Of a DNA stretch of 64,000 nt, positions 3,079 to 55,667 are shown one piece after another (the stretch's first letter is position 1; each line of letters starts with the position of its first letter). This DNA is from Dysidea avara (lineage: Eukaryota > Porifera > Demospongiae > Dictyoceratida > Dysideidae). The translations under genes were made by a program, and so were the position numbers. The notes under the pieces were generated by a model that searched no databases, was not told the origin of the DNA, and saw nothing but the letters and a program-made list of their open reading frames with translations. The stretch is taken from NCBI RefSeq assembly GCF_963678975.1, contig NC_089285.1:9906694-9970693 (forward strand), read 5' to 3'.

Positions 3079-3720
3079 CTTATTATTATTATTATTATTA
3101 TTGTTACTGAGCAGACAGCACAGCTGATATGCTCAGGAAAAAAAAGCAATCATAAAATGAATTTAGCTACGTAGTTACAAAGATTACAGTTATAGAGTTC
3201 CATACAATGTTTGCAGTTCCGCTGAAAAAGAGTCAATATTGTTGCTCTCAATGATGGAAGATGGTAAGTTGTTCCAATCCTTAATTGATCTGGAGAAAAA
3301 GCTCTGTTGGTATGAATGGGTAGATGAATTTGGTAGAATAAAACGATGTGGGTGATATAGTCTGGTGGATCTTGTCATTGAAATAAAATGAAGAGGAATT
3401 GACAGTGAATAATCTTGATGTATAATTTTAAAAAGTGCTTGTAATCTGGATATTTTACGTCTCAGCTGAAGGCTTGGCCAAGAAAGATGCTGTAACATAG
3501 CTGTGACTGAGCTGAATCGATTGAAATCATTTAGGACCCATCTAGCTGCCCTACGCTGTACTTTCTCTAGCTGTTGAATATTGTTATGGTGGTATGGGTC
3601 CCAGATGACTGCAGCGTATTCCATTGACGGTCGTACTATCGTAAGGTAGGCTGTTGCTTTGATGTTAGATGAGCAGCAACTCAGATTGCGTTTCAAAAAG
3701 TTCCGTTTTCTTCCGTGCAT
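3079..3720 (-). mobile_element. 5'-truncated LINE with reverse transcriptase 3' end
   Basis: The minus-strand frame 3720-3190 encodes 176 residues of the extreme C-terminal part of a CR1/L2-type LINE polyprotein. These include AYLTIVRPSMEYAAVIWDPY, then LEKVQRRAARWVLNDFNRFS, a LQLRRKISRLQALFKI block and a C-terminal SRSIKDWNNLPSSI. The palm catalytic motif is absent because the copy is 5'-truncated. Downstream on the minus strand the copy ends in an (AAT)n microsatellite at 3080-3103, a usual 3' tail for these LINEs. The first residues after the annotated Met have no special start context, so the frame simply enters from truncated sequence. No function is expected. Confidence 0.8.
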
Positions 3721-40636: not shown

Positions 40637-41885
40637 TAGTGTTGGGCGATATCACATATTTAATAATCTAGATATTTGTTACCAAATAATCTAGATTTTC
40701 GATTTAATCTCAATATTTGTAACATTATGTAAATGATTGTTGTAACCAGTAAAAGGACATAAAGTCTTATAAATTAGTAGCTAAAAAGGTTAATATATTG
40801 ACCTTCTCAGGGTTTAGTAAGGATCGTTTATCAGTAAAAATGTTTCCTGAAATGCTAAATAATCATTCAGATGGACAGCTGGTGGCACAAATGCATAGAT
40901 ATTTCCTTGCTAACACTGACAGGGTAGGGAAAGAAGCAAAATTTCTCCTCCACCACTTTAATGGGTTTGAATCTGCATCTGGCTTTGGGGACTGCAAGTA
41001 GGATTCAATTTCCTTCTTCACCTTGTCTTCCAAACTAGTCCTACTGCCAGTGTCAGCACTTCTGCTTTCTGTGGTTTGTTTAAGGATACTCCCCAGAGTA
41101 ATCTTTTTCTTCTTTGCTGGAGGCTCATGTGTCCCATGTGTGGCAATTGTTAAGTCTATTCTAGCATCTCCATCTTCTCTTTCTTTTGTAGCTATTGTCA
41201 TAGCTTCAACAGCTATGCAATTCTTGATTGTACCCAAGTCTTTATTGTCAATGAAATTGGTCTTGAAACGTGGGTCTACAAAGCCTGCCATATCAAGTAG
41301 TTTGTTAACCTCGGGATCAGTATACTTGTCTTCTAAGTAAGCCATGACTTTAGACTTGATATCCTTTGTAAGCTGAACATCGTTTTCTTTGACAGATAGA
41401 ATATCTGTACGGAAATGATCTAGTATTGGTTTAATAGCTGACACTGTGACATGCTTTTCTGCAGATAAACATCAGTAAAGTTCTTTAAGACTGACAAAGC
41501 ATTGTTAACACCATTCAAAACTTCTTTGTCTTGCCAGGTAGGAACATGGCATGTATTTTTGTCTTTGCTAAGTACTTGACGAATAACATCTTCTTGTTCT
41601 ATTACACGCTCCACCATCATTTGGTTAGATCCCCACCTTGTTGGACAATTAGTAACAAGTGTGCTCTGGCAGGTTCAGGCTTGTTTGAATGGCAGAAAGT
41701 CTTTTTTTTTAAAGCTGTGAGAAAAAGCTGAGGTTATTTTTTTACATAATCCGAATGCTCTTGCCACGCAATCATCCCCTTTTGTTGAATTTGTCACTGC
41801 TAAATTCAGATTGTGTCCGAAACAGGAGAGATGTGTCCAATTCAGCATGCTAATTGCGGAAAGGATATTGCTCCCAGAATTTCCT
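40637..41885 (-). pseudogene. hAT transposase, nearly full C-terminal half
   Basis: From 41875 on the minus strand: SGSNILSAISMLNWTHLSCF, GHNLNLAVTN, CPTRWGSN, then VIEQEDVIRQVLSKDKN. After a one-base shift near 41440 follow AIKPILDHF, DPRFKT and the dimerisation region NPLKWWRRNFASFPTLSVLA, RKYLCICATSCPSE. An in-frame TGA (consistent with CGA to TGA) precedes LFSISGNIFTDKRSLLNPEK. Another TGA lies after FKQA (about 41674). About 125 bp past the coding end, AGTGTTGGGCGATATC (40637) looks like a hAT terminal repeat. The 5' end is lost at a junction with a pogo fragment at about 41875-41885. hAT identity is strong; the copy is inactive. Confidence 0.8.
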
Positions 41886-49533: not shown

Positions 49534-50080
49534 TGAAGTTGGCTGCCTAGGTCTTCGACTGGAGAACTACTCCTTGGATCATCCACACTTGATTGCATAG
49601 TTGAGCTGGTGTTTAGTAGCCCTTCAACAATCTATATTAATAATGTTTTAATACATAATAGCTATTATTAGCTATGTTGTGTTTTTTTCAACATACTGCT
49701 TTTTGCTTTCTTTGTTCTGAAGCTGGTCTACAAGATTGTGTTGACACTTGGCAGCTGCTGCTGCTACCACTGTGAATAGGCTTGGGAAAAATTTATTTTT
49801 ATTATTAACACTTTACAGTGACCAGCACTGAAGGTCTACAACAAATAGTTGGAATGGCGTCTGGCTTGAGGCACGGCTTCTTGGCTGTAATACCCATTTC
49901 TTTGTGATAAAGTCGCCTCTCTGTGTTAAAGCATTCAGGTTCGAAATGCTTCAAGCAAATTAAGGGAGAAGTTGTTGGTCCTTTCCAATCTTTACGCTGC
50001 TGATGCACAGCCCTTACCCACTTCGAGCTAACAGCTGCATTGCTAGGAAATCCGTGTAAGTTGTAACCCATACCTCTTTC

Positions 50081-50085
50081 AGTGT
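50081..50085. repeat. Target-site duplication, left (AGTGT)
   Basis: Identical to 55638-55642 and belongs once to the THAP reading frame, which confirms the element boundaries. Confidence 0.85.
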
Positions 50086-50245
50086 AGTCCAGTCGGTGGT
50101 CTCATAGACTCAATACATTAACCTAGTAATCTCAAGTACTATGAAGTTTTTTTACAGATTTGTGTTCCCAGGTGGTTCTAGAACAAATTCAGCTTGGTTG
50201 CCCAAGTGGCAACTTTGGGCAACTCTGGAAAATTGTGAAAATTTA
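50086..50245. repeat. Left terminal inverted repeat
   Basis: About 160 bp; pairs with 55493-55637 with roughly one mismatch or small gap per ten bases and the largest gap at 50097-50115. Confidence 0.85.
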
Positions 50246-50560
50246 AAATGGCCGATATGACTATGACCGGCTCCAACAGAAAAACTTTTTTTGTGTAATA
50301 TGTCTAATATAGGGTTATTGGGGGTGCAGAATTCATTTCTGGTGTTAACTTTTGAATCTGAGGTGTAGAACATAGTGAAAATTTAAAATGGCCACCGCAG
50401 AAACAATTCACTACAAAAATTAATGCACGATGCTTTTAGCATACGGTTAGCTATGGTTTTTGTAGATATTTTCTCATGTCATTTTTTCCACCATAGCATT
50501 ATATACAAAAATTTAGAATGATTGGTTGAGATTACTATACTATAAAACAAAGCTAAGTAG

Positions 50561-53500
50561 CTAGAGCATGTCTAATTCAAAATCCTCTTCAGCAATTATG
50601 CAGTTTTCATCATGAACATCACCAGACTCTCCTTCCTCTTCATCTTCGATCGCAGTGTCACTTTCAAAATAGTCATCATCTGCCTCATTTTCATCTTCTT
50701 CACTGCTTGTTCCAGGTCTCACAGAGTGTGGATTACAGCAGTCTTCTCCACCAGAGCAATTGCAATAGGAAGTGCATGGTACATGCTTTTTGTGACAGCT
50801 GCAAGCTTCAGAACTGCATCGCTTGCCTTGTGCCTTGCAGCTACACTTTATTAAGTCAATTAGTTCAGGTGGAGCTGGAGCACCTGGAGCAATTGCAGGA
50901 ATCGGAATATCATTTTGGATAATCCATCCAAAGTGGGTAATGTCTGATGACTGGTCAGGTGGTGCCTGCTGGTCTGCTGCTTTCCATAGCATTACCTGTA
51001 GATGTGCCCGCAAAACATGCAGCAAGAGGTTGGCAGATGTTGGAGGTAAAGCCATGATTTTTGTGGCTTTCTTCTTCTTAGTAAATAGTTTGAAACGAGC
51101 ATTTTCCATTGAGGTCCCGCTAGGCTGACGATAAAGAGCACAGAAAAATTGTTGAGCCGCTTCCATCAAATCAGTGTGGGTGGCGTCTACCTCACCAAGT
51201 TCATGGGCTAAACCTGGGAAGTTTCCAGTAAGCAGGGTGTTAAGTGCACTGATTTTACCCTTGCCATATGGGTACGATACTGTGTCACATCCACTTAGGG
51301 CATGCATACCAAGGAGCTGAAAGCATTTTTCGCCCAAGTCAGCACAAGTAGCATTAATGTCCAGCACTGTCCCATCCCATCTTTCCATCTGTACCTTACA
51401 TTGCAGTCCAGCTCGATGCACCCAATAGACCAATAAAACAAAGACATCAGTGTCATCACTAAGAACACGAATCACACTCTTGCCATGGCTAGCAGCCTGT
51501 ATGACATACGAAACCATTGTGACATCAGCTTCATCATGACTAAAGGCACCATCATCCCTAGTTTCCATTGTCACATTGTTATCCATGCTGAAGGTGCACA
51601 ACACACTTGCCAACCGTCGCTTGTTGTTCTTGCTTTTGAGAATTGCATCTCTTTTGGGAAGGGGACTAGTGATGGAGAGCTCGTAGTCAACTACCACCTC
51701 CCCAGCACGCCGCATTCTCTCATGATCTTTGGCAGAAGTGTCATTGTATTTGTCAAATACAATGATTTTCTCAGTAGCATCTGGATAACGACTAATCTTA
51801 CTTTGAATGCAAGCAATCAAATTAGACAGATTACCACCATGTGGCCACACAGTGTGATAAAATAGCTGCGAAACATCCACTACAACAGTTTCAGGAGTTA
51901 CTGGTAAGACATCAAGCACTCCAAGACGTTTAACTAGAGCAGACTTGTTGGCTTTGCGGAGACAACTGTGTTCATCTAGAAGTGATGAAGGAACTGAACA
52001 TAGCTCATATGTAAAAAGGTGCTCAAGCTTTATCTGTCGCTGCTGGCCAATCATCAATAGCCGAAGAAACATGCTTTCCAAGTCAATAACTGGCCTCACC
52101 TTGCTGCCTTTTGCTTGTTTCTTAATAATCGACATTGTCTTTATAGGACTAGAAATAGGATTGTGGAAGCCTTCTGGGAGAGTGGCGATGTATGCCTGCT
52201 CCATTTTCTCTCCGATGAAAAAAGAGTCCATCACATTCACATCAGTAGGTGCTACTTGGCCTGTTATAGGATTGTACAAATGAATTTTGCTGTCTTCTAG
52301 AGGATGAGGGTACTTCTCTACTTCTGCTGCAATCATACTTCGATCTTCTGCATCCAAAAGACGTCGATGTTTCTGCTCCTCCTTGTGCTGCTTCTGCTTA
52401 AATTCTTGTGTATGAGAGGAGTACATAGTGTCCACAGCCTGTGATACATGAACAGTAATGGGGAAGGCATCGATCCACTCTGAAATTAACTCTGGAGACA
52501 GAGTCATGCCTCTGAGAGAACCTTTTCCCATCTTGATGGCCGTCTGTTCTCCAAATTGATCAGCAGAGACAGCATTCCAGTAACCTGCATGATGTCGACA
52601 AACAAGATCCACCTTGCCCTCAGTATCTAAAGCACGCATTTCGAGAAGGTACTGAGTGAGATAGCGAGCATATTGGACATGGCCAGCAAGAAAGAAATAT
52701 TTCATCATGCGTTCCAGTGTCACTTGTTTCAAGTGCACATTGCCCTCTCTCTCTGCTCTCTCAAATTGGTGGACAAGAAGTGTCGGAAGAAGAAAGTTGT
52801 AGACCCAGTGACGTCCTGTTGGATGGAGGCAAGCAGTCTCCAAATACTTCTCAATCTGTTCTAGTGTCTTTGGTCCAGTTGACAGGAATCGTTTCAGTAG
52901 TGCGGCTGACACTCCACGGAAAGCTCGCATGGCTTTCACCCAAGACTTTCCATTGAAGATACCTGCCAAAAAAGTCACCAGTAATAGTACTAATATCAAT
53001 TTACATCAACACCTTTTAAACTTACCAGTTAGCCCTCCATATGCTGCAGCAACGTACACTTCAACACCTGAACTCTTCATGAGCTTTCCAATACAGCCAA
53101 TGAAGGACTGCATGATATGCATACCACCAGGATGGACTATCACATTGTGGAACAAGCTTGGTTGATTCCAGCATACCTGTTTTGTAACTGCAAAAAGCTG
53201 CATGTCCATGGTAAGGTGAATGTGTTTCATCCCCATATCAGTAAGAGATTTTTGCATGTAAGTCAGAGTTGTGAGGATGGTATCTGGGTGAGACGGTGGG
53301 GCATCAATGAGAGGGCCAAACATGTAGGTGGTAGCTGGTTTGAGGTCACCCTGGGTCCTAGAAAGCTGATTATTAAAGCCATTCCACTCTATTGCTTCAC
53401 TTCCATTGCTCAGACTGTTCAGCCAAAGAACATCAGCTTCTTGAGCTGCCACCAAGCTCGTATGCCGAGCACGTACATCAGCATATGGAATTCCAATTTG

Positions 53501-55045
53501 CATCTTGTGTGTGAGCATTGCTGGAGGCTTCACCTGCTTTGGACCAGCATAATGGATTAGTGGTATAGCCCTGTTTTTGCCTACAGATTTGGCCTGCTGC
53601 ATTGTGAGTCGAGGAAACTCAAGAGCACTGATGCCTGGTTTTATGCTGCCATTGTGAGGATGCATTTGAAACTCTGTAGCCATGGCATGAGTTTCACGAC
53701 GACCATTTGGGGTTGACACTAGCAAATCGAAGTTATCGTACCATCCAAATATACTACCAACTGTTTCAGTGAGACCCATCATTTGATGTAATGTAGTAGC
53801 ATTCTCCTCTACGTACTTAGCTGCTGACTTGCGAAACCGTAAAACCTCATCATATGGAACTATGTAGCCATGATCATGCAATATGTCAATTAAATCTCTG
53901 CTGCCAAACTTATGATGAAGCTGAATTGCTAAGCCTAAAGCTGTTTGGTTGCGTGCACTAGTAATACAATGCTGTATGGATTGTGATAAACTCAAGGACT
54001 TCTTAGTGACATCACCGTTTGAGACCAGTTTTGAAATAATCCGTAGCAAGGTGACACTGGTGTGCTGCTTTGCTTTGTCATGGGTAAAATCACCGACATC
54101 ATAGCTTTTGCTGCTACTTACAATGCTATGCGACTCAGATTTAATTTTTCTCACTAAATCATCTTCCTTCTCCTCATCAACAGAATTAACATAAGTAAGT
54201 TTAAACATCTTACTTACATATTCCCGGAATCCAACAATCGATGCACAACCCTCAATGTTAAGTACAACCACATCACTGCCTAAAGAAGTTACTAACTTAG
54301 TAAACAACTGTTTTCTTTCTAGCTGACCACCATAACTAAGATATTTGTCATACAGCTCAACTGATGACCAAGTACAGTGTTTTTGATTGGCGTACATCTC
54401 ATTAGCAAGCAACTTCATGGCTTCATCATCATACAAAATAACATCAATAGAATTATTCAAAGGTTTTCTGAACTCATTGTAGCATCGAAGGTGATACTGA
54501 GCTTCAACAGCAGCTAAATCATATGCACCATGACAGCGTATAGCAACTTCCCGACCCCACTCATCATTTCGGTCACCACAATACTGAAGTACGGCATCTT
54601 TGAAAGGTGCAGCATCCTTGATACCCCTTCTTTCACACTGAACTACTTTCTCCCACCTATCAGGATGCTTAGGGTTTATAGGTTCACACACTTTAGCACA
54701 AAATAAACAGTGATTTTTGAACTGAAAATCACCTACTTGTGATCTTCTAACCCTAGCTGTTGGAGCCTCTGTGATGTCAGCTTCCGAAGCCTTCCTCTTC
54801 CTTGACACAAGTTTCTTTATATGATCCTTTGATGTATACGAACAATAACAGTTCTTATGGAGTTCAACTGATGCTTGTTCTCCATGAGAATTTAGAATGC
54901 TCTGCAATTTGTTATGAAGCTCCTGGTCACCACGCTCCACTGCACACTCTATCAGCTTCTTCACTGCTTTTTGTTTGAAAGTGCTAAATTGCCCAGACTT
55001 ACTACAGATTGGAAGAAAGCACTTTTGATCACCCAATGTAGCCAT
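50561..55045 (-). CDS. FEN1/XPG-like nuclease with CXC cluster, transposon-encoded
   Basis: Two exons, 55045-53026 and 52962-50561, joined by a 63-nt GTAAGT...TTGGCAG intron, in frame through GGLTG/IFNGKSW; 1473 residues. The start is ATG GCT at 55045 (an upstream TTG is in frame but not needed). Residues 1-200 hold Cys/His blocks (CFLPIC, HKNCYC, HCLFC..C, YHLRCYNEF), probably zinc-binding. The nuclease core follows: VVVDVSQLF (Asp1036), VFDKYND (Asp1077), SHDEADVTM (Glu1151/Asp1153), SDDTDVF (Asp1177/Asp1179) and SGCDTVSYPYGKGK (Asp1233). These match in order and spacing the FEN1 metal ligands and its GxGxK helix-hairpin turn. Residues 1380-1416 form a CXC-like cluster (CSCKAQGKRC, CSCHKKHVPCTSYCNCS), likely DNA- or zinc-binding, and residues 1426-1473 are very acidic. 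Nuclease activity and its role in transposition are inferred. The paralogue at 34179 shares the plan. Confidence 0.85.
52963..53025 (-). other. Intron of the nuclease gene
   Basis: 63 nt, donor GTAAGTTT and acceptor TTTTTTGGCAG on the minus strand. Splitting a Gly codon after its first base, it restores one continuous frame from two long open frames that otherwise end or begin in intron sequence. Confidence 0.85.
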
Positions 55046-55325
55046 CGGAAGCAAAAGAAATGTGAAAATTGTTGCAGAAATATGTATTGCAGGATGTCAA
55101 ACACCTAAAAAACAATTTTTTTAAAGTTGAAAGTAAAGTTTACAAAAATGAAACAGAAAAACGTACTGCATTAATTAGAAAACCAGCCAAATGCATCAAA
55201 TCTACACTTACTCTACTCCTGATCCAATATCAAACCTTGTAGATTATCATACAACCAAAACTTAAGTCTGAAAACGAGTGGTAGCTACTCTTCTGCTCCC
55301 TTTTAAAAATTAATATAGAACGTCC

Positions 55326-55339
55326 GTTACCATGGCAAC
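55326..55339. promoter_or_regulatory. Canonical RFX X-box in the transposon 5' region
   Basis: GTTACCATGGCAAC (minus strand GTTGCCATGGTAAC) matches the textbook X-box closely. It lies about 280 bp upstream of the nuclease ATG, inside the element. A TTTTTTAG acceptor-like site near 55107 hints at a 5' UTR intron between it and the ATG. Confidence 0.5.
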
Positions 55340-55492
55340 CAATTACGTAATTTGTTTTTTGACCTCAAATTAGTATCATCTTGTGCAGAAAAATGTGCTG
55401 AATTCAATGGTGCCAAAATTACTTTGATTGTATAAAATCCCGAAGAGTTATGAACACTAGCTCATATGTAAATTTATGACTTCCTGCATATA

Positions 55493-55637
55493 AATTTTCG
55501 CCAATTTTCTAGAGTTGCCCAAAGTTGCCACTTGGGCAACCAAGCTGAATCTGTTCTAGAACCACCTTGGAACATAAATCAGAAAAAAAACTTCATAGTT
55601 CTTGAGATTACTAGGTTCACAAAATTTCGACTAGACT
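55493..55637. repeat. Right terminal inverted repeat
   Basis: Reverse complement of 50086-50245; it contains AGTTGCCCAAAGTTGCCACT, itself a short internal near-palindrome. Confidence 0.85.
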
Positions 55638-55642
55638 AGTGT
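55638..55642. repeat. Target-site duplication, right (AGTGT)
   Basis: Second copy of the 5-bp target duplication. Confidence 0.85.
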
Positions 55643-55667
55643 GGCAACCAGCAACTACACAACGTCT

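Follow-up and report, generated by a model that had tools for sequence, protein, structure and literature searches.

Background

In AcademX, one lineage of the Academ transposons, the encoded nuclease is, as reportedly set out by Kojima in 2020, of the XPG type. Academ is listed among the DDD/E superfamilies (excerpt of PMC9587614). AcademX and AcademH are placed in the same superfamily, AcademX with target-site duplications of 3 or 4 bp and AcademH with 9 or 10 bp, and this difference is tied to an encoded nuclease or helicase, respectively (excerpt of PMC10045372). The 100 curated Academ consensus sequences from bivalves have a mean length of 5565 bp (excerpt of PMC10294476). The DNA analysed here, hereafter the window, comprises 64,000 nucleotides of the sponge Dysidea avara (contig NC_089285.1, positions 9,906,694 to 9,970,693, forward strand); all positions below are those of the window. 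It contains a transposon that is, very probably, an apparently autonomous and very recently active class II element of the Academ kind (AcademX), with a single protein that combines putative end-binding domains, a P/hAT-like DDE centre, an XPG/FEN1-type nuclease and a Cys-rich tail. Direct support comes from the termini, the 3-bp duplications, the family of copies, the restored empty site and the conservation of both catalytic sets.

Element boundaries and insertion site

The transposon occupies positions 50085..55638 (5554 bp, the exact length of six two-ended copies, that of the window included), and its gene lies on the minus strand. The element reads TAGTC...GACTA and is bounded by 11-bp terminal inverted repeats of the form TAGTCYAGTCG, namely TAGTCCAGTCG at 50085..50095 (plus strand) and TAGTCTAGTCG at 55628..55638 (minus strand). 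Subterminal inverted repeats of about 126 bp, 93% identical to each other, are located at 50120..50245 (plus) and 55491..55617 (minus). The paired termini AGTCYAGTCG named in the original prediction are real, as this motif occurs exactly twice in the window, both times at the claimed ends, versus a mean of 0.10 occurrences in shuffled sequences. Their start was misplaced: the true terminus lies one base further out, and T precedes AGTCC and A follows GACT in all 12 copies with both ends readable.

A 5-bp duplication, AGTGT, had also been proposed. This reading was ruled out by comparison of the 12 two-ended copies, 11 of which show a duplication of exactly 3 bp (GTG, GAA, CAT, TAA, TTA, GTT, AAG, TAG, CAA, ACA and TAA). 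By the same comparison, the duplication in the window is GTG at 50082..50084 and 55639..55641. The apparent 5 bp are explained by this GTG together with a chance match of the terminal A and T of the element to the flanking letters, for which the probability is approximately 0.095. The probability of finding 3-bp duplications in at least 11 of 12 copies by chance is 9e-19 at the base composition of the window. The remaining copy (L012) is a complete 5554-bp element with intact ends that lacks a target-site duplication; either a deletion in the flank or recombination between identical copies could account for this.

After removal of the element and one duplication, the flanks join into a frame reading CVVAGCHTERGMGYNLHGFP, which continues as a THAP domain. 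The 3' part of this frame is found at 49808..50084 and the 5' part, with its first two cysteines, at 55642..55661, both on the minus strand. The joined frame scored 53.6 bits against the Pfam THAP profile (positions 1-86), and the interrupted frame, which matches from position 18 onwards, scored 45.0 bits; the element has thus inserted into a THAP zinc finger, directly behind its second cysteine. Since the same empty site is expected for a duplication of 3 bp or of 5 bp, it supports insertion and cannot fix the duplication length; 3 bp was chosen because of the other copies. The interrupted frame may be either a host gene or a piece of another transposon.

Copies in the genome

The D. avara assembly (550.8 Mb, 108 contigs) was searched with the left end of the element, resulting in 26 matches, which represent 13 left ends and the 13 inverted subterminal repeats of the same 13 elements. 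Twelve elements besides the one in the window thus share its termini, in agreement with the search that had been proposed as a test. These twelve were fetched, and both ends were readable in 12 of all 13. Seven are near-identical full copies, including that of the window. Six of these (the window and five others) have 5554 bp and are identical save for one synonymous change in L009. The seventh, L020, matched over 5461 bp with one difference; its left end enters N, so that its interpretation as a truncated copy was unsupported and was dropped.

The other six copies (L014-L019) have 2942 bp, are mutually identical and occupy separate sites. They differ from the full form by one substitution and by the absence of 2612 bp. 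An in-frame fusion of the N-terminus to the XPG module was considered for this form and rejected: its reading frame ends after 136 residues, and the short copies are therefore non-autonomous. The equal numbers of 2942-bp and two-ended full copies suggest efficient movement in trans. Flanking DNA (400 bp per side) was compared among the 11 fetched copies with two ends. It is unrelated except for two weak matches of 72-74% identity, and the copies thus look like separate insertions. The element has apparently been active very recently. With six 5554-bp copies differing by 0-1 positions, an intact element could be used in assays unchanged, and the near-identical copies offer a natural system for probing the role of the nuclease.

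Gene and protein layout

The original prediction of one uninterrupted two-exon gene encoding 1473 residues was borne out. Exon 1 (53026..55045) encodes residues 1-673 and the first base of codon 674, the 63-bp intron (52963..53025) has the form GTAAGT...GCAG with GT-AG borders, and exon 2 (50561..52962) includes the stop codon, all on the minus strand. The splice is backed by the intronless homologues P0008 and P0040, which run straight across its position. Within the element, no other reading frame longer than 162 residues was found.

The domain order is Cys/His-rich region, winged helix, RNase H-fold DDE transposase, XPG/FEN1/EXO1-fold nuclease and CXC tail. Fold assignments are based on AlphaFold2 models of two homologues standing in for the window protein, P0040 for its residues ~1-825 (mean predicted local distance difference test score, pLDDT, 84.2) and P0008 for residues ~370-1469 (mean pLDDT 82.6). 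Conservation was counted in an alignment of 172 rows. Scans of the window protein against Pfam, NCBIfam and PADLOC gave nothing above cut-off.

The N-terminal region (residues ~9-192, 54470..55021, minus strand), delimited by conservation, contains the conserved residues C9, C14, H63 and C66 as well as C113, C116, C120, C137, H185 and C188, and is probably zinc-binding, as judged from this pattern. A winged-helix-like domain follows at residues ~203-279 (54209..54439, minus). At the C-terminal end, the CXC cluster seen earlier was confirmed as a Cys-rich tail (residues ~1378-1418, 50729..50851, minus) with nine cysteines, each of which is C in 157-160 of the 172 rows; the name CXC is taken from database names of homologues.

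Predicted DDE transposase core

Residues ~420-830 (52493..53788, minus strand, with the intron inside) are assigned to an RNase H-fold DDE transposase core according to the P0040 model and conservation. The proposed first catalytic aspartate is D437 (53735..53737, minus), which is invariant in the 161 rows that have a letter at this position; D440 is conserved to the same degree. D614, the proposed second aspartate, stands directly after a strand (53204..53206, minus; 170 of 170 rows), and the proposed catalytic glutamate, E812, lies in a helix behind an all-helical insertion (52547..52549, minus; 171 of 171 rows). In a structure comparison of the P0040 model, the top eight rows were P element, Hermes and ISCth4, with the P element best and hAT next; the listing omits some transposase families, and absence from it is no evidence. 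The earlier statement that no DDE recombinase motif is apparent was thus not borne out. The transposase lies in the approximately 1000 N-terminal residues, as one of two alternatives had it, and structure prediction of the kind proposed as a check, applied to the homologues P0040 and P0008, revealed both the RNase H and the nuclease fold.

According to the other alternative, the element lacks a DDE recombinase and is moved by its XPG-type nuclease alone. The catalytic residues of the nuclease are indeed intact and conserved, and no Pfam family exceeded the cut-off in the window protein. Inverted termini with duplications of fixed length are the usual product of DDE transposition, and the element has inverted termini, with 3-bp duplications in 11 of 12 copies. 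Together with the modelling of residues ~340-825 as a DDE RNase H fold nearest to the P element and the invariance of D437, D614 and E812, this renders mobilisation by the nuclease alone very improbable.

The Pfam family PF20231 (DUF6589), the function of which is unannotated, matched weakly over the DDE region in five of nine relatives scanned (P0140, 27.8 bits; P0054, 26.4; P0005, 18.9; P0048, 17.4; P0082, 15.9). Only P0140 lies above the cut-off of 27, and the window protein is unmatched. These matches suggest that DUF6589 may correspond to an Academ-like transposase core.

XPG-type nuclease

Nucleases of the XPG/FEN1/EXO1 type have seven acidic metal ligands. The nuclease module comprises residues ~1021-1340 (50963..51922, minus strand), its fold being assigned from homologue P0008, and all seven ligands are present in order (D1036, D1077, E1151, D1153, D1177, D1179 and D1233). 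The earlier observation of acidic motifs in FEN1/EXO1 order with every ligand kept therefore holds for the window protein. A profile of 109 rows was compared with the PDB, and the stretch that aligned to EXO1 includes all ligands but D1036. A profile was needed, as a single-sequence search of the PDB with exon 2 returned only three antibody chains (E-value ~0.8). EXO1 is ~14% identical to the nuclease module, and unlike EXO1, FEN1 and XPG, the nuclease is here fused behind a transposase.

Of the 153 aligned proteins that cover all ten catalytic positions of both centres, 152 have an acidic residue at every one of them; 19 of the 172 rows were left out of this count for a letter missing at one or more positions, and one of these 19 has K at D1179. 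Ratios of nonsynonymous to synonymous substitution rates (dN/dS) were calculated for nine pairs, most of which were too similar or saturated (L023/L024 was near saturation). In L021/L022, the sole pair informative for all regions, dN/dS was similar for the DDE and XPG regions. The pair L021/L028 repeated this result in part, with 0.082 for the DDE region over 118 codons and 0.170 for the XPG region.

Proposed mechanism

The N-terminal Cys/His-rich and winged-helix domains would recognise the ~126-bp subterminal repeats at the ends. The P/hAT-like DDE centre (D437 or D440, D614 and E812) would make the 3' ends and join them to the target at positions staggered by 3 bp. The XPG-type nuclease, whose family acts specifically where single- and double-stranded DNA meet, may process the 5' strand at the ends or joints, and the 2942-bp copies would be mobilised in trans. 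We tentatively propose that the XPG module is required for transposition. Its most likely task would be to cleave or trim back the non-transferred 5' strand at the transposon ends, as TnsA does beside TnsB in Tn7, or else to clear 5' flaps from the joints.

It is somewhat doubtful, yet conceivable, that the nuclease is instead an accessory acting after excision, in donor-gap repair or flap trimming, and is dispensable for cutting and joining; such a role would be compatible with Academ membership. XPG, FEN1 and EXO1 are repair nucleases, and AcademH, a related lineage, has a helicase in place of the nuclease (excerpt of PMC10045372), so that the accessory enzyme varies. A dispensable accessory fits less well with the fusion to the transposase, with the finding that 152 of 153 rows keep both catalytic sets acidic and with the similar dN/dS of the two modules in the one informative pair.

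In Tn7, TnsA works beside TnsB, and the two divide the labour between the strands. If the module described here is required, it might be part of a eukaryotic counterpart of TnsA/TnsB, in which the DDE centre acts on the 3' strand, by cleavage and transfer, and the XPG nuclease cuts the 5' strand, and the change from nuclease to helicase in AcademH would shift the duplication from 3-4 to 9-10 bp. This extended reading is plausible but rather unlikely.

Relatives in this genome and elsewhere

A genome search with the exon-2 protein, in which scoring was limited to 56 of 681 candidates, yielded at least 59 rows; 7 of these belong to the complete and 6 to the shortened copies, and 46 others show 26-34% identity. 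A few genes are represented by two rows. For 16 of the 46 diverged rows, stretches were fetched (L021-L036), which form six groups when clustered at 60% protein identity. Five of the stretches (L021-L024 and L029) contain stop-to-stop frames that span 1475-1556 codons. Ends were searched strictly, with termini starting TAGT and at most 4 mismatches in 16. Inverted TAGT termini with an exact 3-bp duplication were found in 13 of the 16 relatives and five of the six groups, for example TAGTCCAGTCATTTTA, TAGTCTAGTCAAAA, TAGTCAGGTAGCTT, TAGTGGGGTTGCTT and TAGTAGGGTGGCTT; L024, L031 and L034 gave none in this search. When left and right ends were paired across groups as a control, 6 of 196 pairs matched, and 10 of 44 matched between different loci of the same group. 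In a looser version of the search, 49 of 240 mixed pairs had matched, a total that also counts pairs within one family. Given 13 of 16 versus 6 of 196, the wider group in this genome, at ~27-31% protein identity to the window element, appears to share TAGT termini and 3-bp duplications. A 6-bp AAATTT match in L021, L026 and L027 was set aside, since it falls on a palindrome within an inverted repeat; symmetric matches in these three stretches point to inverted repeats a few hundred bases long.

Residues 350-1420 were used to search for homologues. Among the 7984 candidates scored, selected for the largest number of shared words, 52 proteins had an E-value of 1e-3 or lower. A second search, with a profile of five distant homologues, found 266 among 7991 scored. 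The best 120 of these 266 include names from Porites, Mytilus, Mercenaria (P0144 and P0153, both distant relatives), Littorina and Patella, and three are named 'Tesmin/TSO1-like CXC domain-containing protein'. Judged by this similarity, related coral and mollusc proteins annotated as 'uncharacterized' or 'CXC domain-containing' may be transposon proteins. Two relatives, P0005 and P0032, are filed in bacterial metagenome bins (Candidatus Thiodiazotropha endolucinida and Sedimenticola sp.) and are possibly animal-host contigs mixed into symbiont bins. Scans of viral contig, genome contig and phage collections revealed no relative.

Other features of the window

A remnant of the C-terminus of a hAT transposase (Dimer_Tnp_hAT, 37.4 bits) is located at 40863-41471 on the minus strand. 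An open frame at 3190-3720, also on the minus strand, resembles by eye the C-terminal portion of a reverse transcriptase from a non-LTR retrotransposon; it had no Pfam match.

Comparison with known systems

P elements and hAT elements make 8-bp duplications and are not known to have an XPG module. The window element differs from both the P element transposase (6pe2, 6p5a) and the hAT transposase Hermes in its XPG module and its 3-bp duplications. From AcademH it is set apart by a nuclease in place of the helicase (no helicase family was found in the protein of either exon by Pfam scan) and by 3-bp duplications in 11 of 12 copies instead of 9-10 bp.

The literature search turned up no published description of an XPG-bearing Academ protein. 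Excerpts of PMC9783078, PMC10799480 and PMC4455052 mention Academ or AcademH and contain no protein or duplication data, and Academ is absent from the main text of PMC10004981. The element might represent a separate, unnamed superfamily with a P/hAT-like DDE centre and an XPG nuclease, Academ-like in action and non-homologous to the Academ protein of Repbase. The likeness to Academ was judged from published descriptions, the literature search supplied no Academ protein, and the Pfam links are weak (DUF6589 at 16-28 bits in five of nine relatives scanned). Against this, DDD/E transposase, nuclease, 3-4-bp duplication and a length of ~5.5 kb all agree with the Academ descriptions, and Academ-1 is listed in Mercenaria (excerpt of PMC8905726), the genus that also holds P0144 and P0153. 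A separate superfamily is accordingly considered improbable.

As compared by description, the window element fits an already described kind, the AcademX lineage of Academ. The DDD/E transposase of AcademX is matched by a predicted DDE fold with invariant D437, D614 and E812, its nuclease by the XPG/FEN1/EXO1-fold module, its length near 5.5 kb by 5554 bp, and its 3- or 4-bp duplications by 3 bp in 11 of 12 copies and in 13 of 16 diverged relatives; the duplication, once taken for a departure from Academ, falls within the range of AcademX. No differences from AcademX were found by the descriptions in the literature. A P/hAT-like DDE core, a winged helix and an EXO1/FEN1-like nuclease are thereby placed together in one Academ-type protein. 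Since all examined features of AcademX are found here, the element was filed as a member of this known kind.

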